Source: Luteimonas saliphila (GTDB taxonomy: Bacteria; Pseudomonadota; Gammaproteobacteria; Xanthomonadales; Xanthomonadaceae). From it: a DNA stretch of 64,000 nucleotides. Positions within the stretch are counted from its first letter, which is position 1. Each line of letters opens with the position of its first letter. The stretch spans positions 62,001-126,000 of the forward strand of contig NZ_JAETWA010000011.1 in NCBI RefSeq assembly GCF_016774335.1, written 5' to 3'. This document shows positions 13,104-23,660 of the stretch, piece by piece. The translations under genes were made by a program, and so were the position numbers. The notes under the pieces were generated by a model. The model did no database searches. It had not been told where the DNA came from and saw nothing but the letters and a program-made list of their open reading frames with translations.

Positions 13104-13187
13104 GAACCGGGGTCAGAGTCGACTTTCCTTCCGGGCGTTTCCGAAGCGGTGCCATCAAGAGCGGAAAGTCGACTCTGACCCCGGTTC
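13104..13187. repeat. Inverted repeat with GGGGTCAGAGTCGACTTT arms
   Basis: A 25-bp perfect inverted repeat (13104-13128 and 13163-13187) with a 34-base loop between the convergent glmU and histidine kinase genes. Arms of the type GGGGTCAGAGTnnACTTT are widespread in gammaproteobacteria and often found near REP-associated tyrosine transposases; none is present here. It could work as a bidirectional terminator. Confidence 0.8.
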
Positions 13188-13260: not shown

Positions 13261-14586
13261 TCAACCAACGTCCGTCGGGCGCGGCAGCACCATCGACACG
13301 CATAGTCCGCCGCCGTCGCGGTTGAGTAGGGCGATGCGGCCGCCGTGCGCCTCGGCGATCTCGCGCGCGAGCGCAAGCCCCAGGCCGGTGCCGCTGCGCT
13401 TGGTCGAATAGAACGGCAGCAGCGCGTTCTCCAGCACCGATTCGTTCATTCCGCTGCCGCGGTCGAGCACGTCGATGCGCCAGCCGTCGGCGATGCGCCG
13501 CACCGCGAGCGAGACGGTCCCGGGCGCGGTGCCGGATTCGTGCGCGTTCTTGATCAGGTTCAGCAGCGCCTGCTCCAGCTGCGCCGGGTCGAAGCGCGCC
13601 ACCTCGTCGGGAACCGTGCCCTCGATCGCGAAGTCCATCTGCGTGCGCAGCTTCTCGACGAACTGCGGCAACCGCATCGGCTCGGTCCGCGGCGACGGCA
13701 ACTTGGCGAAGCGCGCGTAGTCGCGCAGGAACCCTTCCAGGTGCCGCGCGCGCTCCTCGATCGTCGCCAGCGCGATCGGCAGCTTCTCGTACTGTCCACG
13801 GCGCAGCAGCTCGGCACCCGAATGCGCCAGCGAGGCGATCGGCGCCAGCGAGTTGTTGAGCTCGTGGCTGATCACGCGGATCACCTTCTTCCAAGTCTGC
13901 ACTTCCTGGCGGCGCAGTTCGGCGGTCATCTGCCGCAGCAGCACCAATTCGTGCCGGCGGCCGTTGAGCCGGAACGTGCGCCGGGCGAGGTGGTAGATGT
14001 CCTCGTGGTCCTCGTCGCCGACGGTGAACATGCCGTCGCCGCCGCGCGCGAAGGCCTCGCCCACCGCGGCCGGCGCGGCGTCCAGCAGGGCATCGAGCGC
14101 GTGGCCCTCCAGGCGCCGACCATCGCCGAGCATGCGGCGCGCGGCGAGGTTGCCCAGCACCACGCGCCGGGACGGGTCGAGCAGCAGCATCGCCACCGGC
14201 GTGTTCTGCACCATGGTGTCGAGCAACAGTTCGCGTTGCACCAGCGACAGACGCTGGTCGCGCAGGGCCTGGCCGAGTTCGTTGTGGGCGTCGACCAGTT
14301 CGACCAGGTCGCCGTAGCGGTCCCAGGTGATGCCGAAGCTGAAATCGCCGTCGCGGTAGCCGGCGACGGTCCCTGCCAGCGCGCGGAACAGCGCGCGCAA
14401 GGGCACGAACGTGCGCCAGACCACGATGCCCATCGTGGCGCCGACCACGGCCGCGGCCGCCAGCGCCGCCTGCCACGGTATCAGCCACTGGGCGAGCAGC
14501 GCGGTGAGCCCGGCGGTCGCGGCGACGCCGAACAGCACCAGCGCGACCATGCGGATCGCCAGCGGCAGGACGCGGAGGATGCGCAT
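13261..14586 (-). CDS. NtrY-type sensor histidine kinase
   Basis: A 441-residue membrane sensor. Two N-terminal membrane helices (residues about 10-60) leave almost no periplasmic domain, so it probably senses a membrane or cytoplasmic cue, or an associated protein. A HAMP-like linker and a PAS-like segment (MVQNTPVAMLLLDPSRRVVL) follow. The H box is VIRVISHELNNSLAPI, with the phosphoacceptor His. The ATP-binding domain has NLIKNAHES (N box) and STKRSGTGLGLALA (G2 box). It is the last gene of the export operon, 12 bases after the cognate regulator gene. Confidence 0.92.
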   Translation of the reverse strand: MRILRVLPLAIRMVALVLFGVAATAGLTALLAQWLIPWQAALAAAAVVGATMGIVVWRTFVPLRALFRALAGTVAGYRDGDFSFGITWDRYGDLVELVDAHNELGQALRDQRLSLVQRELLLDTMVQNTPVAMLLLDPSRRVVLGNLAARRMLGDGRRLEGHALDALLDAAPAAVGEAFARGGDGMFTVGDEDHEDIYHLARRTFRLNGRRHELVLLRQMTAELRRQEVQTWKKVIRVISHELNNSLAPIASLAHSGAELLRRGQYEKLPIALATIEERARHLEGFLRDYARFAKLPSPRTEPMRLPQFVEKLRTQMDFAIEGTVPDEVARFDPAQLEQALLNLIKNAHESGTAPGTVSLAVRRIADGWRIDVLDRGSGMNESVLENALLPFYSTKRSGTGLGLALAREIAEAHGGRIALLNRDGGGLCVSMVLPRPTDVG

Positions 14587-14598
14587 CGATGCGTCGTG

Positions 14599-15942
14599 TC
14601 AGCCGCGCGGGATGCCGTAGCGGTCGAGCCGGCGATACAGCGCCTGCCGCGACAGGCCGAGGTCGGCCGCCGCCTGGGCGAGCACGCCGCCGCTGCGAGC
14701 CAGCGCGGCCTCGATCGCGGCGCGATCGGGTTCGTCGCCCCCGCCATGCGCGTGCGGGGGCGATGCCAGCGCCTGCAGGCCCAGCGCCTCGGCTTCGATG
14801 CGCTCGCCCGACAGCAGCGCCGCGCGCTGCACCGCATTCCGCAGTTCGCGCACGTTGCCGGGCCAGGCGTGGCGCAGCAGCGCGCGTTCGGCACCCTCGC
14901 CGAACTGTTTTCCGGCGGGGAGGAAATGTCGCGCCAGCGGCAGGATGTCGCGCGGCCGGCGCGACAGCGGCGGGACGCGCAGCTCGATGCCGTTGAGCCG
15001 GTAGTACAGGTCCTCGCGGAACTGGCCGTCGGCGATCATCGCCGGCAGGTCGGCATTGGTCGCGCTGACCACGCGCACCTTCACGGTGCGCTCCTGGTTG
15101 CCGCCCAGGCGCTGGAAGCGACCGGTTTCCAGCACCCGCAGCAGCTTCACCTGCCCCGCCGGCGGCAGCGTGCCGATTTCGTCGAGGAACAGGGTGCCGC
15201 CGTCGGCGGCCTCGAACTTGCCGGTGCGCGCCTTGTTGCCCGCGCCGGTGTAGGCGCCGGGTTCGGCCCCGAACAGCTCGGCCTCGATCAGTTCGCTGGG
15301 CAGCGCGCCGCAGTTCACCGCCACGAACGGGCCCGACTTCACCGCCGAATTGTGGTGGATGATCTCGGCGTACTTTTCCTTGCCGGCGCCATTGGGCCCG
15401 GTGACCAGCACCGGCAGCTCGGAGCGTGCGACCTGCAGCGCCAGCGCCAGCACGGTCTCGCTGGCGACGTCGTCGTACACCAGGCCGCGCAGGTCGTGCT
15501 GCCGCGCCAGCGCTTCGCGACGCCGGCGCTCCCCACCGCTGCGCGCGGCCAGCTCGCGCCGGGTTTCCGAAAGCTCGAGCAGGTTGTTCACCGAGGCCAG
15601 CAGCTTGTGGTCGTCCCAGGGCTTGCCCACGTAGTCGGCGGCACCGGCCTTGACCAGGTCGACCGCCGATTCCAGCCGCGTCCACGCGGTGAGCAGGATC
15701 ACCGGCATGTCCGGGTGCTGCGCGCGGATATCGCGGAACAGCGCCACGCCCTCGTCGCCGGAGGTGGTGTCGGCGCGGAAGTTCATGTCCTGGATGACCA
15801 GGTCGATGCCGCCGCGCTGCAGCAGCGCCAGGCCCGTTTCCGGCGTTTCCGCGCGCTGCACGTGGATCTCGTGCAGCGAGAACAGCAGGTCGAGCGCGGT
15901 GGCGACGGACGGGTTGTCGTCGATGACGAGGACGGTGGGCAT
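14599..15942 (-). CDS. NtrC-family sigma-54-dependent response regulator
   Basis: A 447-residue three-domain activator. The receiver domain (1-120) has VIDDNPS, the phosphoacceptor Asp in VIQDMNF and the conserved LLTAWT and VGKPWD positions. The AAA+ domain has an unusual Walker A, GPNGAGKEKYAE, Walker B LFLDEIG, and GAYTGA instead of the canonical GAFTGA loop that contacts sigma-54. The C-terminal Fis-type helix-turn-helix is LAQAAADLGLSRQALYRRL. A near-consensus sigma-54 promoter with two upstream palindromes precedes the operon, so it very probably activates its own operon. Confidence 0.93.
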   Translation of the reverse strand: MPTVLVIDDNPSVATALDLLFSLHEIHVQRAETPETGLALLQRGGIDLVIQDMNFRADTTSGDEGVALFRDIRAQHPDMPVILLTAWTRLESAVDLVKAGAADYVGKPWDDHKLLASVNNLLELSETRRELAARSGGERRRREALARQHDLRGLVYDDVASETVLALALQVARSELPVLVTGPNGAGKEKYAEIIHHNSAVKSGPFVAVNCGALPSELIEAELFGAEPGAYTGAGNKARTGKFEAADGGTLFLDEIGTLPPAGQVKLLRVLETGRFQRLGGNQERTVKVRVVSATNADLPAMIADGQFREDLYYRLNGIELRVPPLSRRPRDILPLARHFLPAGKQFGEGAERALLRHAWPGNVRELRNAVQRAALLSGERIEAEALGLQALASPPHAHGGGDEPDRAAIEAALARSGGVLAQAAADLGLSRQALYRRLDRYGIPRG

Positions 15943-15981
15943 CGTGCCTGCAGGAATGGGTGTGTGCGTATCGTAAGCCGA

Positions 15982-16515
15982 TCAGTCCGCGGCGGCACGA
16001 TGGCCGTAGCTGAGCACGCGGGTGATGCGCCACGCGCCGGCATCGTGCCGCCAAACCATGGTGAAGTCCGCGACGCCCTCGCACGTCCCCGAAGTCGCCT
16101 GGCAGAAGCGGTGCGTGCCCTGCGAGATCGCGCCGAATCCGTGGACCGGATGGACCCGCAGGCTGCCGGCGACGAGTTCGCGGGTGTACTTTCCGCAGGC
16201 GTGCCTGCGCGTGTTCGCCAGCATCTCGTCCCGCGTCCAGGTCACGCCGCCGGCATCGTGGTAGAACTCGACCCGCGGATCGAAATGGCCGGCGTGCGCT
16301 TCCAGCTGGGCCGGATCGGCACAGCGGTTGAAGGCCTCGAACACCGAGGCATCCTGCGCGGCAATCGCTTCGGCGAGGCCCTCCGGCGACGGCGCGTCCG
16401 TCGCCTGCGCGTGGCAGGCGACGAGGGCGGACAAGGCTCCAAGCAAGGGCCCGGCGAACATCCGCATGCGAGCGCCCCCGGCCGTCGCCGGTTGCGATGT
16501 CCGCGGCCACGCCAT
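15982..16515 (-). CDS. NTF2-like (DUF4440-type) exported protein
   Basis: Up to 177 residues. The ATG at 16515 overlaps the stop of the preceding permease gene (TGATG), suggesting coupling; an internal ATG at 16467 would give a cleaner N-terminus, MRMFAGPLLGALSALVAC, whose LVAC resembles a lipoprotein box. The rest matches the NTF2-like fold: FNRCADPAQLEAHAGHFDPR, then VWRHDAGAWRITRVLSYGH at the end. Such folds bind small ligands or act as accessory subunits. Its place inside an export operon suggests a periplasmic accessory role, but no function can be assigned. Confidence 0.7.
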   Translation of the reverse strand: MAWPRTSQPATAGGARMRMFAGPLLGALSALVACHAQATDAPSPEGLAEAIAAQDASVFEAFNRCADPAQLEAHAGHFDPRVEFYHDAGGVTWTRDEMLANTRRHACGKYTRELVAGSLRVHPVHGFGAISQGTHRFCQATSGTCEGVADFTMVWRHDAGAWRITRVLSYGHRAAAD

Positions 16516-17747
16516 CAGACGCTCCGGGTCGCGATCGCCGGTGGTACCTCGGCCGCGCGGCGCGCCGGTCCGAAGACCGCGATCTGCCCCAGCAGCCACA
16601 ACGCCAGGGCGCCGATCGGCAGGTAGTACAACGGCAGCCGCGGCAGCTCGTACTTGCCCATCAGCAACTGGTTGATGCCGTATGCGAGCAACATGCCGAT
16701 CACGATGCCGATCGTGGCGAGCAGGAAGTTCTCGGTCTGGAAATAGCGCAGGATCTGTCCCTTGGTCGCACCCAGCGCGCGGCGCACACCGATCTGCTTG
16801 GTGCGCTGCTGCACCCAGAAGCTGGCGAGGCCGACGATGCCGAGCGCGGTGACGAACAACAGCGCGATGCACACGATCGCCAGCAGCCATGCCATCGAGC
16901 GCGGCTGCTGGTAGAACTCGCGGCGCAGTTCCTCGAAGGTCTTGGTGTTCTCTTCGAGGATGATGCGACGGGGCCCGTTGCCGCGCAGCGCCTCGCTGGC
17001 GGCGGCCAGCACTTCGGCGCGGCGCTCGGGATCGGTCCGGAGCACGTAGTTGCCGCCGATGGTGTAGCTGGCACGCACCGGCATGATCAGTGCGTACTCC
17101 CGCGCTGTCGGTCCGCCCTGCATGCTCGGCCGGACCAGGTGTTCGACGATGCCGACGATCCGCACCGGCTCGTTGCCCCAGACGTAGATCGACTTGCCCA
17201 CGGCATCTTCGCCGGGGAACAGCCGTTCGGCGAGGGAACGGGTGGCGATGACGCTGGCGACGCGTGCCTCGCTTTCGGGGGCGTTGAGCACATCGAAGTC
17301 GACGTACTCGTCCACAGTGAAGTTGCGTCCGGAGACGAGGTTCAGGCCGAATGCATCGATGAACTGCTCCTCGGTCATGTAGTTGGAGGCGTTGAGGGTC
17401 GTGGTCTGCTGGTCCGGATCGAGCCGCACACCGCTGTTCCACGAGGAGTTCACGAACGGCACCTGGTTGGTCACCGTCGCGGCCTTGACGCCAGGCAGGC
17501 CGCGCAACATCGCAAGGTCCGAACGCGTCTGCGCGTTGGCGTCGGCGTCGTCGCCGACCGGCAGCAACTGCACGCGGACCATCTCGTTCTCGGCGAGTCC
17601 ACTGGTTTCGGTGACCTGCGAGATGCGCTCGCCGATCATGAACAGTGCGTTGCAGATGATCGCGCAGGTCAGCGCGATCTCCAGCACGATTAGCGCGGCG
17701 GCGGTCTTGTGGCGCAGCAGGGTGGAGAGGATGGGGCGGATTTCCAT
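16515..17747 (-). CDS. FtsX/MacB-type ABC transporter permease (second)
   Basis: A 410-residue permease with one N-terminal helix (residues about 20-42), a large periplasmic domain of the MacB type, and three C-terminal helices with the conserved FtsX segment KQIGVRRALGATKGQILRYF. The ATG at 17747 is chosen because GGAG lies seven bases before it. It pairs with the permease gene just upstream, so the complex is probably a heterodimer in the MacB/LolCE style. A REP pair lies in the 144-base gap between the two genes. Confidence 0.9.
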   Translation of the reverse strand: MEIRPILSTLLRHKTAAALIVLEIALTCAIICNALFMIGERISQVTETSGLAENEMVRVQLLPVGDDADANAQTRSDLAMLRGLPGVKAATVTNQVPFVNSSWNSGVRLDPDQQTTTLNASNYMTEEQFIDAFGLNLVSGRNFTVDEYVDFDVLNAPESEARVASVIATRSLAERLFPGEDAVGKSIYVWGNEPVRIVGIVEHLVRPSMQGGPTAREYALIMPVRASYTIGGNYVLRTDPERRAEVLAAASEALRGNGPRRIILEENTKTFEELRREFYQQPRSMAWLLAIVCIALLFVTALGIVGLASFWVQQRTKQIGVRRALGATKGQILRYFQTENFLLATIGIVIGMLLAYGINQLLMGKYELPRLPLYYLPIGALALWLLGQIAVFGPARRAAEVPPAIATRSV

Positions 17748-17770
17748 GGTGGTTCTCCGGAGCATCGTCC

Positions 17771-17884
17771 TGTAGGAGCGCCCTATGGGCGCGACAGGGA
17801 CGCGTTGTGGGTGGCCCGCATCACGTCCGGCGATGCGTCGTCGACTGGCTGCTGTTGCGGTCGCGGGCATGGCCCGCTCCTACA
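17771..17884. repeat. REP pair between the two permease genes
   Basis: TGTAGGAGCGCCC at 17771 faces GGCCCGCTCCTACA ending at 17884. Each half also forms its own small hairpin (GCGCCCTATGGGCGC and GCGGGCATGGCCCGC). It belongs to the same GTAGGAGCG family as the tandem array at 26401. Within an operon such elements often stabilise or terminate part of the message. Confidence 0.8.
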
Positions 17885-17891
17885 GCGATGG

Positions 17892-19193
17892 TCACTGGGA
17901 TTTGAGCTGGATGGCGGGCGTTACCTGCATCGCGCGCCAGGCGGGCAGCAGGCCGGCGAACAGGCTGGCGAAGATCGCGATCGCGAACGTCGTCAGCAGC
18001 ATGCCCAGATCCAGATGCGCGAGCTCGGCATAGTCGGCCGGTTGCTGGCGCACCGCCCACAGGCCGAGCAACGACAGGCCGAGCCCGAGGATGCCGCCGG
18101 CGAGCCCGATGGTGCCGGCTTCGACCAGGCATTGCTTGAAGATCTCCAGCCGCGACGCACCCAACGCCCGGCGCACGCCGATCTCGCTGCTGCGGCGCAG
18201 GAACTTGGCCAGCAGCAGGCCCACGGTGTTGAGCAGGCAGACCAGCAGGAAGCCGAAGCCCAGCCACAGCTGCATCACCACGTCGCCGGGCACCACCTTG
18301 TTGTGGTCCAGCCACTGCATGACGTTGCGCAGACGCACGTTGGCCTCGCGCTCGAAGCGCCCGGCCTGGCGCTGCTGTTCGGAGTAGCTGACCAGGTAGT
18401 CGCGATACGCGGAAGCCTTCTGCGGGCTGTCCAGCTCGACCCAGTACTGGATCCACGTGCAGGGCGCGTTGAGCGAGGTCGAATCGCCGCCGCTGTCGCC
18501 CCAGCAGTTCATGCTGCCACTGCGCGAGAGCGACAGCTCGCGCGAGGTGGAGAACGGCAGGAACACCTCTTCCAGCTCGCCATAGCGCTCGCTGTACATG
18601 TCGTAGAAGCGCGGCGTCGGGCGCCAGGTGTCGAGCACGCCGATCACCGAGAAGTCGTTGCCCGCCAGGTTGACCTGCTTGCCGACGCTGTTGCCGCCCC
18701 CGAACAGCTTGTCGTTGAGCTCCTTCGAGATCACCGCCACCCGTGCGCCGGCCGTGTCCTCCGTCTCGCTCCAGCCGTTGCCGTGCAGGAACGGCGCCGC
18801 GAACATCGCGAAGAAGTCGGCGCTGGTGTAGCGCGACGTCGCCATGAACGGCACCAGGTCGGCATTGTCCGGCGTGACCGACACGTTGCCGCCGGTCATC
18901 ATCGCTTGGCGGTCGGCACGTTTCTCGCGCAGCATCGTTTCCGAGTCCAAACGGGTCATCTGGTCCGAAGGCTCCTCCCCCGGCACGTAGCCGAACGCGC
19001 TCTCCGGATCGAGCTGCACGTAGAACAGCTGGCTGCTCTTGTGCGGGATCGGGTCCCCGGACAGCACCCGGAACACGGTCAGCGTGGTCATGCACGCGCC
19101 GATGCCCAGCGCGATCGCCAGGACCATCAGTGCGGTGAGCACCCTGTTGCGCTTGAAACTGCGCAGCGCGAGGTTGAGGTAGTAGCCGAACAT
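17892..19193 (-). CDS. FtsX/MacB-type ABC transporter permease (first)
   Basis: A 433-residue permease. Helix 1 (residues about 18-40, LMVLAIALGIGACMTTLTVF) is followed by a long periplasmic domain with a Cys pair (MNCWGD and APCTW). Three C-terminal helices follow, with the FtsX motif SSEIGVRRALGASRLEIFKQ. It is related to, but clearly different from, the second permease. It sits between the ATPase gene and the second permease gene. Proteins of this type do not move substrate through the membrane but transmit ATPase motion to a periplasmic adaptor. Confidence 0.9.
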   Translation of the reverse strand: MFGYYLNLALRSFKRNRVLTALMVLAIALGIGACMTTLTVFRVLSGDPIPHKSSQLFYVQLDPESAFGYVPGEEPSDQMTRLDSETMLREKRADRQAMMTGGNVSVTPDNADLVPFMATSRYTSADFFAMFAAPFLHGNGWSETEDTAGARVAVISKELNDKLFGGGNSVGKQVNLAGNDFSVIGVLDTWRPTPRFYDMYSERYGELEEVFLPFSTSRELSLSRSGSMNCWGDSGGDSTSLNAPCTWIQYWVELDSPQKASAYRDYLVSYSEQQRQAGRFEREANVRLRNVMQWLDHNKVVPGDVVMQLWLGFGFLLVCLLNTVGLLLAKFLRRSSEIGVRRALGASRLEIFKQCLVEAGTIGLAGGILGLGLSLLGLWAVRQQPADYAELAHLDLGMLLTTFAIAIFASLFAGLLPAWRAMQVTPAIQLKSQ

Positions 19194-19208
19194 GGATTGG
19201 CTCCGTAG

Positions 19209-19226
19209 GGCGGGCCCTGGCCCGCC
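19209..19226. repeat. Small hairpin between ATPase and first permease genes
   Basis: GGCGGGCC and GGCCCGCC form an 8-bp stem around a CT loop, preceded by GTAG as in the local REP family. It lies in the 93-base gap between two genes of the export operon. Confidence 0.6.
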
Positions 19227-19286
19227 GATGTGTCGGTTGGAATGCCGCCGGGAAACGACGGGCGCGATGGCGGGTCCGGCCCCTGC

Positions 19287-20012
<726 letters not shown>

Positions 20013-20139
20013 GGTGTATTCCTTCGGGCGCGGCGGTGAGAAGGGCCATCCCGGCCGTGGCGGCGATGCCGCGGGACGCTGTCCGGAGAGAGAGGCGGAC
20101 GCGTCCCGGCGAGACCGGGATGGAAAAAGCGGACGCGGC

Positions 20140-20358
20140 TCAGTGCACGCCGAAACGGCCCGGCAGCGCCGAGCGTCCGACGTATCCGGCGGCTGTGCGG
20201 GCGCGTGCGCGCTCGCCGTTGGCGGCGGCGCGGCTGGCATTGTCGCGCGCGGCGTCGAAGGCGAACACTTCGTGCAGGCGCAGCGGGACGGCATCGGCCA
20301 GTTGCTGCGCGGTCCAGTGCAGGCGGGTGGGGAAATGGGCGAAGGCGTTCATGGTCAT
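20140..20358 (-). CDS. Small coupled protein of unknown function in export operon
   Basis: A 72-residue protein starting MTMNAFAHFPTRLHWTAQQL. Its ATG overlaps the stop of the adaptor gene in an ATGA arrangement, the usual sign of translational coupling, and it ends 127 bases before the ATPase gene. It has no signal peptide and no membrane helix; it is mixed polar with an Ala/Arg-rich middle and ends in SALPGRFGVH. I do not recognise a family. Its position between adaptor and ATPase makes it a candidate substrate precursor, small regulator or assembly factor of the exporter, but nothing in the sequence decides between these. Confidence 0.55.
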   Translation of the reverse strand: MTMNAFAHFPTRLHWTAQQLADAVPLRLHEVFAFDAARDNASRAAANGERARARTAAGYVGRSALPGRFGVH

Positions 20359-21650
20359 TGTCCAGAGATGCGGACGCGGTCCGCGTTGGCGAACTGGTCG
20401 GTCCCGGAGACGACGATGCGCTCGCCCGCCTCCAGTCCCGATACGATTTCCACGGCGTTGAGGCTGGCGGCCCCTGCCTGGATCGGGCGTCGCACGGCGC
20501 TGCTGCCGTCGACCACCCAGGCGAAGCGCCCGCCGTCCTGTTCCAGGAACGGGCCGCGCTCGACCATCAGCACGTCCTCGCGCGTGTCGAGCACGATCCG
20601 CGCGGACAGACGCTGGTTCTGGCGCAGGTTGGGCGGCTGCTGGCCGTCGTCGAAGCGCAGCCGCGCGGTGACCTCGCCATTGACCACCTCGGGCGAGACC
20701 GCCGACACCAGCGCCGCGTAGCGGTTGCCACTGCTGGTGACCTGCGCCGGCACGCCGATCGCCAGGTCGCGAGCGAAGCTCTCCGGCACCCGGATCTCGA
20801 CCTCGAACATGCTCAGGTCGACCACGCTCAGGATCGGCGCGTTGACCGCGACGTTGGTGCCCTGCGCGATCTGCACCTGGCCGACCTGGCCGTCGAACGG
20901 CGCGCGCAGCGTCAGCGCCTCGACCTGGCGGCGCAGTTCTCCCACCACTGCCTGCTGGCGCTCGGCGAGCAGGCGCTTGTTGCGCGCGTCGATGCCCGCG
21001 CCCTCGCCCTGCAGCGAGAAATCCTTGCGCGCCGCGGCCAGGCCCAGGTCGGCCTTCTTCATTCCGTCGAGCGCGCGATCGTACTCGTTCTTCGACACCG
21101 CGCCGCCCTCGAAGGCGCGCTGGTAGCGCTCGACGTCGCGCTGCGCGGCGGTGTGGTCGATCTGCGCCTGGTCGAGCAGCTTCTGCGCGTCGGAGCGGGT
21201 GAGCTGGGCATCGAGCACGGCGCGGTTGGCTTCGCCCTGCAGGCTGGCCAGGGTCGATTCCTCCTGCACCAGCCTGCTGCGCAGCTCGGGGCTGTCGATC
21301 ACGGCCAGTTCCTGGCCCTGCTCGACCACGTCGCCGGCGACCACCTTCAGCGTCACCGTGCCGCCGGCGATCGCGTACAGCGTCGGGCTGTTGGCGGTGA
21401 TGACGCGGCCGTCGGCGGACAGGTCGCGCACCAGGTCGCCGCGGGTGACCTCGGCGATGCGGATGCGCGAGGCATCGAACGAACTGGAGCCAGAGGCCCA
21501 GCCGCCTATCACCCAGGCCGCGAGCAGGCCGAGCACCAGCGCCGCGGCGCCGCCCAGCAGCCAGGCCTTCGGCAGCCGGCGCAGTCCGGAGGGCCGGGCC
21601 AGCACCTGGTCCTGGCCGGAGGTGTCGCGGATGCGGGCGGGCTGGTCCAT
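20355..21650 (-). CDS. HlyD/MacA-type periplasmic adaptor (membrane fusion protein)
   Basis: A 431-residue protein anchored by one N-terminal helix (LLGGAAALVLGLLAAWVIGG, residues about 31-50). A biotinyl-lipoyl-like half (GGTVTLKVVAGDVVEQGQEL) precedes a long alpha-helical hairpin (about 115-230) and is completed by LRAPFDGQVGQVQIAQGTNV. Beta-barrel and membrane-proximal domains follow. The start at 21650 is supported by the sigma-54 promoter at 21692-21706, which makes a start at 21707 impossible from that promoter. It is the first gene of the operon and would bridge the inner-membrane ABC complex to an outer-membrane channel. Confidence 0.92.
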   Translation of the reverse strand: MDQPARIRDTSGQDQVLARPSGLRRLPKAWLLGGAAALVLGLLAAWVIGGWASGSSSFDASRIRIAEVTRGDLVRDLSADGRVITANSPTLYAIAGGTVTLKVVAGDVVEQGQELAVIDSPELRSRLVQEESTLASLQGEANRAVLDAQLTRSDAQKLLDQAQIDHTAAQRDVERYQRAFEGGAVSKNEYDRALDGMKKADLGLAAARKDFSLQGEGAGIDARNKRLLAERQQAVVGELRRQVEALTLRAPFDGQVGQVQIAQGTNVAVNAPILSVVDLSMFEVEIRVPESFARDLAIGVPAQVTSSGNRYAALVSAVSPEVVNGEVTARLRFDDGQQPPNLRQNQRLSARIVLDTREDVLMVERGPFLEQDGGRFAWVVDGSSAVRRPIQAGAASLNAVEIVSGLEAGERIVVSGTDQFANADRVRISGQ

Positions 21651-21691
21651 GGGCAGGTCAATGGATGTCGAAGGAGGCAGGAAGGTTGCAC

Positions 21692-21706
21692 GCAACCTCC
21701 GTGCCA
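21692..21706 (-). promoter_or_regulatory. Sigma-54 (-24/-12) promoter of the export operon
   Basis: Read on the minus strand the sequence is TGGCACG-GAGG-TTGC, the sigma-54 consensus (TGGCACG-N4-TTGC) without a mismatch; a T precedes it, also as expected. Transcription would start near 21680, about 30 bases before the adaptor gene. The operon it drives encodes an NtrC-type sigma-54 activator. Confidence 0.88.
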
Positions 21707-21749
21707 ACGTCGATGCCGTTGATCATTAAAGGAAAATGCGTCTGTCCGG

Positions 21750-21786
21750 GTGTCCGCGCGGACACTCAGGCTGTCCGGTCGGACAG
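21750..21786. promoter_or_regulatory. Two palindromic activator sites (likely UAS)
   Basis: Two palindromes TGTCCG-N2-CGGACA lie at 21751-21764 and 21772-21785. Their centres are 21 bases apart, two helical turns, and about 78 and 99 bases upstream of the predicted sigma-54 start. This is the usual arrangement of NtrC-type enhancer sites. Half-sites TGTCCG (21743) and CGGACA (21806) flank them. They also lie 50-80 bases before the glmS start, so an effect on glmS is possible. Confidence 0.75.
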
Positions 21787-21830
21787 GCCTTTCCCGTACA
21801 CTTGGCGGACACTCGGGGAGATGCGGATTC

Positions 21831-23660
21831 ATGTGCGGCATCGTCGGCGCGATCGCGGATCGCGATGTGGTTCCGGTCCTGATCGACGGACTGAAGCGTC
21901 TGGAATACCGCGGCTACGACTCGGCCGGGATCGCCCTGGTCGACGGCAGCGACGTGCGCCGTGTGCGCCGCACCGGCCGCGTCTCGGAAATGGAAGCCGC
22001 CGCGCAGGCCGAAGGCGTGCGAGCCTCGCTCGGCATCGGCCATACGCGCTGGGCCACCCACGGCGGCGTCACCGAGGCCAACGCGCATCCGCACATCAGC
22101 CACGGCGTGGCGCTGGTGCACAACGGCATCATCGAGAACCACGAGCAGCAGCGCGAGCGGCTGCAACAGCTCGGCTACGCGTTCGAGTCGCAGACCGACA
22201 CCGAGGTGATCGCGCACCTGATCCATCATTACCTCAAGGGCGGCCAGGACCTGCTCGGCGCCCTGCAGTGCACGGTCAAGGAGCTGCACGGCGCCTACGC
22301 GCTGGCGGTGATCAGCCGCAAGGAGCCGGGCCGCATGGTGGTGGCGCGCATGGGTTGCCCGCTGCTGATCGGCCTCGGCGAGGGCGAGAACTTCGTCGCG
22401 TCCGACGTCTCGGCGATCGTGCAGTACACGCGCCGGGTGATCTTCCTGGAGGAAGGCGACACCGCCGAGATCAGCCGCGAAGGCGTTCGCGTGTTCGGCG
22501 CGGACGATGCGCCGGTGCAGCGCGAAGAGCACCTGTCGGATGTCTCGCTGGCGTCGCTGGAGCTCGGCCCGTACCGCCACTTCATGCAGAAGGAGATCCA
22601 CGAGCAGCCGCGCGCGATCGCCGACACGCTCGAGGCGATCATCGACGCCAGCGCATTCGAGCCGGCGCTGTTCGGCAAGGACACCGACGAGGTGCTGGCC
22701 GGGGTCGAGGGCGTGCAGATCCTGGCCTGCGGCACCAGCTTCTACGCCGGTTCGGTGGCGCGCTACTGGATCGAGGCGATCAGCGGACTGCCGTGCAGCG
22801 TCGAGATCGCCAGCGAGTACCGCTACCGCAAGGCGGTGGCGAACCCGAAGCAGCTGATCGTCACCATCTCGCAGTCGGGCGAAACGCTGGACACGATGGA
22901 GGCGCTCAAGTACGCCAGGTCGCTCGGGCACGACAAGACGCTTTCGATCTGCAACGTGCCCGAGAGCGCGATCCCGCGCGCCAGCCGGTTGGTGTTCTAC
23001 ACCCGCGCCGGCGCCGAGATCGGCGTCGCCTCGACCAAGGCCTTCACCACCCAGCTGGTCGGCCTGTTCGCGCTCGCCGCCACGCTGGCCAAGCTGCACG
23101 GCCGGCTCGACGCGGACAAGGAGGGCGAGTACATCGAGGCGCTGCGCCACCTGCCCGGCAGCATCCAGCACGCGCTCAACCTCGAGCCGCAGATCGCCCT
23201 GTGGGCCGAGCGCTTCGCGCCGCGCGACCACGCCCTGTTCCTCGGCCGCGGCGTGCACTACCCGATCGCGCTCGAGGGCGCGCTCAAGCTCAAGGAAATC
23301 TCATACATCCACGCCGAGGCGTATCCGGCCGGCGAGCTCAAGCACGGCCCGCTGGCGCTGGTGGATGCGGCGATGCCGGTGGTGGTGATCGCACCCAACG
23401 ACAGCCTGCTGGAGAAGGTGAAGTCGAACATGCAGGAAGTGCGCGCGCGCGGCGGCGAGCTGTTCGTGTTCACCGATGCCGACAGCAACTTCAACGAGTC
23501 CGAGGGCGTGCACGTGATCCGCACCCCGCGCCACGTCGGCGTGCTCAGCCCGATCGTGCACACCATCCCGGTGCAGCTGCTGGCGTATCACACGGCGTTG
23601 TCGCGCGGTACCGACGTCGACAAGCCGCGCAACCTGGCCAAGGCGGTCACGGTCGAATAA
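21831..23660 (+). CDS. glmS: Glutamine-fructose-6-phosphate aminotransferase (isomerizing)
   Basis: A 609-residue enzyme that makes glucosamine-6-phosphate from fructose-6-phosphate and glutamine. The start is fixed by MCGIVGAI: Cys2 becomes the N-terminal nucleophile of the glutaminase domain after Met removal. The glutaminase half includes [11 protein letters not shown] and [13 protein letters not shown]. Two SIS sugar-isomerase domains follow, with [25 protein letters not shown] and the ending [12 protein letters not shown]. No glmS ribozyme fits in the short leader. The upstream region is shared with the divergent sigma-54 export operon. Confidence 0.97.

Follow-up and report, generated by a model that had tools for sequence, protein, structure and literature searches.

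The locus and its genes

We analysed a stretch of 64,000 nucleotides (the window) from Luteimonas saliphila, assembly GCF_016774335.1, contig NZ_JAETWA010000011.1, positions 62,001 to 126,000 of the forward strand, and all positions below are those of the window. It carries eight genes that include a MacB-like ATP-binding cassette (ABC) exporter and a two-component system, preceded by a candidate sigma-54 promoter and a set of TGTCCG half-sites. Judged by sequence and by comparison with relatives, this is very probably a dedicated export module under the control of its own two-component system, which would act through the TGTCCG half-sites and the sigma-54 promoter.

All eight operon genes point the same way. 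A sequence-only reading of this DNA had described an adaptor, a small protein, an ATPase, two permeases, an NTF2-like protein, an activator and a kinase, and profile matches bear out this gene content with corrections to starts and annotation. The genes and the divergent neighbour are as follows.

20355..21650, minus strand: periplasmic adaptor gene hlyD (HlyD/RND_mfp type; TIGR01730, 122.4 bits, cut-off 94.9)
20140..20352, minus strand: small open reading frame of 70 amino acids, beginning 2 bp past the adaptor stop
19287..20012, minus strand: ABC ATPase (MacB/LolD/DarD-like; profile matches)
17892..19193, minus strand: permease 1 (MacB_PCD and FtsX; profile match)
16515..17747, minus strand: permease 2 (MacB_PCD and FtsX; profile match)
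15982..16467, minus strand: DUF4440 (NTF2-like) accessory protein (match at 9.4e-9; start at 16467 or 16515)
14599..15942, minus strand: NtrC-type activator with receiver, AAA+ domain with GAYTGA loop and Fis-type helix-turn-helix (profile matches)
13261..14586, minus strand: histidine kinase whose N-terminus has two membrane helices joined by a very short loop (HATPase above the Pfam cut-off)
21831-23660, opposite direction to hlyD: divergent neighbour glmS

The adaptor most plausibly starts at the ATG at 21650. The small open reading frame matched no Pfam family, and in the kinase a PAS-like stretch (21.3 bits, cut-off 21.8) and a HisKA stretch fall just below the Pfam cut-offs.

The candidate promoter and the half-sites

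Upstream of hlyD the following features are found.

21692..21706, minus strand: candidate -24/-12 (sigma-54) promoter TGGCACGGAGGTTGC, 0 mismatches to TGGCACG-N4-TTGC
21712..21724, minus strand: site GATCAACGGCATC resembling that of integration host factor (IHF), weak, with 3 mismatches to WATCAANNNNTTR
21743..21748, minus strand: extra half-site CGGACA, 8 bp past the CGGACA of the proximal dyad
21751..21764, minus strand: proximal dyad TGTCCG-CG-CGGACA, exact; contributes the conserved proximal outer half-site, CGGACA at -50 from the -24 element
21772..21785, minus strand: distal dyad TGTCCG-AC-CGGACA, exact; contributes the conserved distal outer half-site, TGTCCG at -79
21806..21811, minus strand: extra half-site TGTCCG (sequence match)

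The sequence-only reading had reported a -24/-12 element without core mismatch and two TGTCCG-N2-CGGACA palindromes with centres 21 bp apart. Both were found again, the element at 21706-21692 exact to TGGCACG-N4-TTGC and the palindromes exact at 21785-21772 and 21764-21751. The element predicts a transcription start at about 21681 on the minus strand, and relative to this start the dyads are centred near -77 and -98.

With up to 1 mismatch the -24/-12 element is matched once in the window as against 2.42 expected, so the count alone is not above chance, and TGTCCG-N2-CGGACA with up to 2 mismatches is likewise at chance level (7 matches, 5.18 expected). The dyads of the window are distinguished by exactness and position, not by count. 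The source genome (4.65 Mb) has rpoN (two PF04552 and two PF04963 matches) and 13 exact matches to TGGCAC-N5-TTGC, as against 6 for the reversed control; the 130 bp upstream of the match at hlyD contain 6 half-sites, compared with 2 for one other match and 0-1 for the rest. A search of the whole genome for the dyad, of the kind that had been proposed as a check, found the exact dyad in these two places alone (reversed control 0), while with up to 1 mismatch it occurs in 11 places as against 20 for the control.

Conservation in relatives

For comparison 80 operons were fetched from an adaptor search of 198 genomes of the family, picked by rank and genus spread, and gene presence was judged within the 10 kb or so fetched per locus. 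The operon is not universal, as the best adaptor match is weak in some of the family genomes. All 80 loci have adaptor, ATPase and both permeases, 73 have the regulator and 71 the kinase. The small open reading frame has a tblastn match in 30 of the 80 and the DUF4440 gene in 10, while glmS is found in 72 and is divergent next to hlyD in all 72. In 6 of the 7 loci without a regulator in reach it lies farther downstream, past extra permease genes. Several extra FtsX-type permease genes stand between ATPase and regulator in L116, L118, L122 and L124 with the downstream loci L148-L150 and L152. In L157 and L158 the regulator match is in two pieces on one strand, for which a frameshift, an assembly error or an alignment gap is possible.

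The upstream regions number 81 with that of the window, and counts out of 80 leave out one of them, L145 from genome G034, which is taken up below. We counted GTCCG or CGGAC in the 130 bp upstream, and took the best-scoring -24/-12 element of each region. TGGCAY-N6-TGC is present upstream of hlyD in 80 of the 81 operons, as against 0.47% of 4000 dinucleotide shuffles. Half-sites number 5.53 per 130 bp on average; shuffles give 0.64 and pieces drawn at random from these loci 0.30. At least 4 half-sites are present in 76 of 80 upstream regions and at least 2 in all 80. Absence of the sites from close relatives that keep the operon, the outcome against itself that the sequence-only reading had named, was thus looked for and not seen.

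The half-sites are also in register with the promoter. Relative to the -24 element, GTCCG is at -80..-75 in 72/80 and CGGAC at -53..-48 in 72/80, with both in 67/80; when the -24 position was jittered (1000 trials) the pair was in register in a mean of 9.0 and at most 17. The combination of -24 element and outer pair, present in these 67 regions, occurs in 0 of 4000 shuffles. Between the -24 element and the aligned hlyD start there are anything from 22 to 189 bp, so it is to the promoter that the half-sites keep a fixed spacing. Allowing up to 1 mismatch, 64 of 80 upstream regions have an IHF-like site, as against 2.3% of shuffles, and in 70 the best match is at -17 or -18. Such a site had not been mentioned in the sequence-only reading. 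A further set of named loci, of which 77 of 80 were usable (3 with less than 300 bp upstream were dropped), gave a -24/-12 element with up to 1 mismatch in 73, the outer pair in 68, at least 4 half-sites in 73 and an IHF-like site in 62. Neither result counts as an independent test, since the windows for the outer pair were chosen after inspection of the data and the named loci share species with the first set.

The inner half-sites are more variable. By our own definitions the 80 upstream regions comprise 24 with tandem dyads, 28 with a nested arrangement, 21 with the distal dyad only and 7 others. A quick tree of 74 regulators, with 31 of its 71 inner branches starred, requires at least 6 changes between tandem and nested layouts. 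The recognition helix is SRQALYRR in 70 of the 74 and SRQSLYRR or TRQSLYRR in the other 4, and as it is nearly constant the inner layout changed without change of that helix. A fixed TGTCCG-N2-CGGACA as the binding unit was rejected, as relatives carry half-sites at other spacings. Of the earlier view that the twin dyads are the control unit, what stands is the conservation of the half-sites; the conserved unit is the outer pair, and the inner pair has several layouts.

At the level of sequence and comparison the promoter, the half-sites, their spacing, the IHF-like site in relatives, the intact loop of the regulator and the joint conservation with the regulator are established, and the -24/-12 element (80/81) and outer pair (67/80) support the earlier proposal of a sigma-54 promoter controlled by the operon's NtrC-type regulator through dyad half-sites.

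Separated and diverged relatives

In G101, the seventh locus without a regulator in reach, the regulator and kinase genes are beside glmS, and the exporter is about 271 kb away with its promoter and dyads. Nine loci have an adaptor with 45-48% identity; regulator identity is 61-76% in the 8 of them that yielded one, kinase identity is 66-75% in the 7 that yielded one, and in these loci the half-sites and -24/-12 element persist. A search of the class (369 genomes, the best few regulator candidates of each being scored) gave the regulator at E <= 1e-105 in 8 genomes, 4 of them outside the family. All four have the same operon with half-sites, which are sparse in two: G561 and G376 keep the operon, the -24/-12 element and 4-5 half-sites, and in the AT-richer G439 and G534 the promoter is weaker and there is a single CGGAC and a single GTCCG.

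PF04552 and PF04963 are both without a match in G034 (99% complete, 20 contigs). Among the 198 family genomes rpoN is missing in 3, and the other two, G014 and G080, are 82% and 86% complete. The loop of the regulator is GAYTGA in 72 of 74 orthologues, GAYTGS in one and GAFAGV in G034, in which the GAFTGA loop is broken. Upstream of hlyD G034 has no -24/-12 element (best 5 mismatches). It keeps half-sites, with TGTCC at -131 and -109 and CGGACA at -123 and -103 from the aligned adaptor start, and has TTGACA at -39. The matching -10 is uncertain, so that sigma-70 control of the exporter in G034 stays a suggestion. NtrC-type regulators without GAFTGA are described as acting at sigma-70 promoters in R. 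capsulatus and Caulobacter (PMC10274813). As far as that account goes, G034 is parallel in that the loop is lost and the DNA half-sites are kept; the loop is deleted in the R. capsulatus and Caulobacter type whereas it is altered in G034, where the sigma-70 promoter is putative.

Family assignment of the proteins

The sequence-only reading held that the regulators are not ordinary nitrogen regulators, and the activator indeed scores well under the NCBIfam equivalog cut-offs for NtrC and NtrX (TIGR01818, 314.9 as against 558.6 bits; NF051870, 266.5 as against 600). It is also below the cut-off for PrsR of the PEP-CTERM system (TIGR02915, 319.4 as against 502.6 bits). Its GAYTGA loop has one conservative change from GAFTGA. 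XibR was considered and rejected, being described as an orphan without a linked sensor (PMC5130282). A literature search, with most subscription journals outside its coverage, recognised no published account of this regulator or of the TGTCCG motif, and we know of no name for this regulator family.

For the exporter, MacB as a single ATPase-permease chain (PRK10535, cut-off 966) does not apply, with 50.4 and 52.2 bits for the permeases and 208 for the ATPase, and the genes are separate. The cut-offs for DarB, DarC and DarD are likewise not reached (38 as against 700, 62.8 as against 450 and 263.3 as against 375).

Proposed mechanism and alternatives

We propose that the membrane kinase would phosphorylate the NtrC-type activator, which would bind the TGTCCG half-sites, some 50-79 bp ahead of the -24 element, and contact the sigma-54 polymerase, probably assisted by an IHF bend in most relatives. 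Adaptor, ATPase and permeases would be switched on together with regulator and kinase in a positive loop, and such positive autoregulation is plausible. Our inferences here concern binding, the direction in which control runs, whether transcription extends through the eight genes, and the signal. The kinase has almost no extracytoplasmic part, which leads to our best guess that it may sense, within the membrane, the envelope or what the exporter is doing, much as BceS senses through BceAB.

Several observations weigh against this proposal. In the source genome the pattern of half-site and -24/-12 element gives 1 match as against 4 for the control. An outer half-site is missing in 13 of the 80 upstream regions (one in 10, both in 3), the IHF-like site of the window is weak, and in G101 no such pattern was found in the stretch around the unlinked regulator. 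The rpoN test depends on one genome, G034. Lastly there are gaps of 93-144 bp, a 26-nt inverted repeat and a terminator-like match (20151-20132, coding strand, past the small open reading frame) inside the cluster, so that read-through to the regulator is not assured.

With control as proposed, the chances are about even that the kinase senses the envelope or cytoplasm in an ordinary way, its PAS-like part being one candidate for this, and independently of the exporter. The PAS-like stretch, so close to its cut-off, speaks for an ordinary sensor, as does the high identity of the kinase in the loci with a diverged adaptor (7 of 9), which is unexpected under tight coupling to the exporter. On the other side is the architecture. 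From 72 kinases 11 shorter than 423 amino acids were dropped, and the 61 full-length ones have, by eye, two hydrophobic stretches in the first 64 or so residues. After 2 without an anchor were dropped, 59 kinases were measured. In 58 of these the two best 15-residue hydrophobic windows are separated by 4-18 residues, in the remaining one by 24; 1 of the 59 has another strongly hydrophobic stretch. BceS has a two-helix, minimal-loop architecture, and by eye and simple hydropathy the kinases here share it; the OmpR-type regulator of the Bce module has no counterpart here, the regulator being of NtrC type. BceS is reported to sense through BceAB (PMC5985334), so that in that case the architecture accompanies sensing through the transporter, and by analogy Bce-like, transporter-coupled sensing by the kinase is a suggestion.

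Returning to the proposed loop, the regulator and kinase genes could have a promoter of their own, with the sigma-54 promoter driving the exporter alone and no positive feedback. We think this rather unlikely. In its favour are the gaps, the inverted repeat and the terminator-like match within the cluster, the unlinked regulator of G101 and the extra permease genes before the regulator in several genomes. However the eight genes are co-directional, and terminator-like matches between 13000 and 22000 on both strands are near chance (5 as against 3.3 expected). No sigma-70-type promoter was found, which is uninformative because only 0.3 were expected.

It is improbable that the dyads also repress the divergent glmS, in a two-way switch between cell-wall precursor supply and export. 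Such a switch would fit the divergent glmS beside hlyD in 72 of 80 loci, and in the window the distal dyad would, by reasoning, overlap a glmS -35 region. When 11 of the 80 upstream regions without a usable glmS start or box are left out, 69 remain, and in 67 of these a -10-like box is 25-39 bp from the glmS ATG. From this box to the outer half-site (n=63, a further 6 having no outer half-site), however, the distance ranges from 16 to 237 bp, so the overlap is not conserved. Co-regulation of glmS as a conserved feature was rejected on this variable distance.

That the half-sites belong to another DNA-binding protein is very improbable: the source genome has other NtrC-type regulators and binding by this one is predicted, but the half-sites follow this regulator while the exporter diverges, are in fixed register to the sigma-54 promoter, and persist where regulator and exporter are unlinked (G101).

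Other candidate targets

The pattern CGGAC-N41..49-TGGCAC-N6-TGC was matched in 170 of the 198 family genomes, with many at hlyD among the matches listed. As the reversed control also gives 0-4 matches on each strand of a genome, one match on its own carries no significance. We chose 16 other regions by eye among the matches listed, as examples and not as a count: 2 are adaptor operons, 2 are before other genes, and in the remaining 12 TrmL follows in 11 and an Ax21-like frame is present in 9. One Ax21/OmpO-type porin passes TIGR04273 (259.9 bits, cut-off 250), and the TrmL frame falls short of TIGR00185 (177, cut-off 190.6). Ax21-like proteins have been linked to antibiotic production in Lysobacter (PMC5469723). 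In S. maltophilia rpoN is described as barely affecting ompO expression (PMC10433810), which weighs against a porin link; no known inducer was present in that growth, and the ompO copy may be a different one.

The module had been called self-contained, which fits the source genome; some relatives have second candidate targets, and the regulator genes are unlinked in G101. In L126 and L127 the adaptor operon is between trmL and the Ax21-like porin gene, with no glmS match in the fetched stretch. In L179 and L180 (G022 and G067) half-sites and a -24/-12 element are upstream of a different gene, which starts MFESLIQVLHQL.

The source genome has a paralogous operon on contig C12 (L164:3256-10563), with adaptor 27%, ATPase 55%, regulator 42% and kinase 30% identical. 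It has its own TGGCATGGGGATTGC, and a palindrome TTCCGGAC-N5-GTCCGGAA starts 92 bp upstream of this. It was rejected as a second target of the TGTCCG half-site, as there is no clear match and a different near-perfect palindrome is present. By its sequence it is perhaps a sister module with another site.

Relation to known systems

As in ZraSR and other NtrC-type systems that activate their own operon, there is here a kinase with an enhancer-binding regulator, a sigma-54 promoter and a proposed autoregulatory loop. Unlike ZraSR the system would control a MacB-like exporter, and the half-site TGTCCG and the kinase topology differ. ZraSR is reported to autoregulate its own operon, and the same paper (PMC12316311, 2025) gives what it terms first evidence that sigma-54 promoters are enriched at FtsX-like permeases (COG0577) in gammaproteobacteria and other classes. 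The parts of that survey that we draw on give no regulator, enhancer or IHF site for those genes, whereas we propose a regulator, a half-site and a spacing. That enrichment being already reported, the kind of control is known; the pair of regulator and site, the spacing rule and the kinase topology are new. The darobactin exporter DarBCD has the component types ATPase, adaptor and permease in common with this one, whose proteins are all below the NCBIfam cut-offs.

BceAB-BceRS of Bacillus is alike in having an ABC transporter of the MacB/FtsX superfamily beside a kinase with minimal extracytoplasmic part. It differs in its OmpR-type regulator, in place of which we find an NtrC type with sigma-54, two separate permeases and a periplasmic adaptor. 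If the kinase does sense through the exporter, then this Bacillus mode of sensing exists with quite different transcription machinery. More tentatively, and with considerable doubt, we would join three points: that the kinase reads the state of the exporter, as a Gram-negative Bce counterpart working on sigma-54; that the inner half-sites were rearranged while the outer stayed fixed; and that the relative without rpoN turned to sigma-70 and kept the operator.

The position of sigma-54 enhancers is usually thought flexible, and fixed outer with changing inner half-sites can probe how far position matters. The relative without rpoN is a natural experiment on an enhancer-binding protein that survives loss of its sigma factor. 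With a regulator family tied to a concrete half-site (TGTCCG) and target, binding, signal and substrate become directly testable.

Further observations at the locus

The 26-nt inverted repeat is at 17770-17885 between the permease genes and is 81% complementary; the gap between these genes is about 130 bp longer in the window than in the close relative L067. Past the kinase gene, at 13104-13187, there is a perfect 25-nt inverted repeat, GAACCGGGGTCAGAGTCGACTTTCC, with arms 34 nt apart, and its core occurs in that one place within the window.

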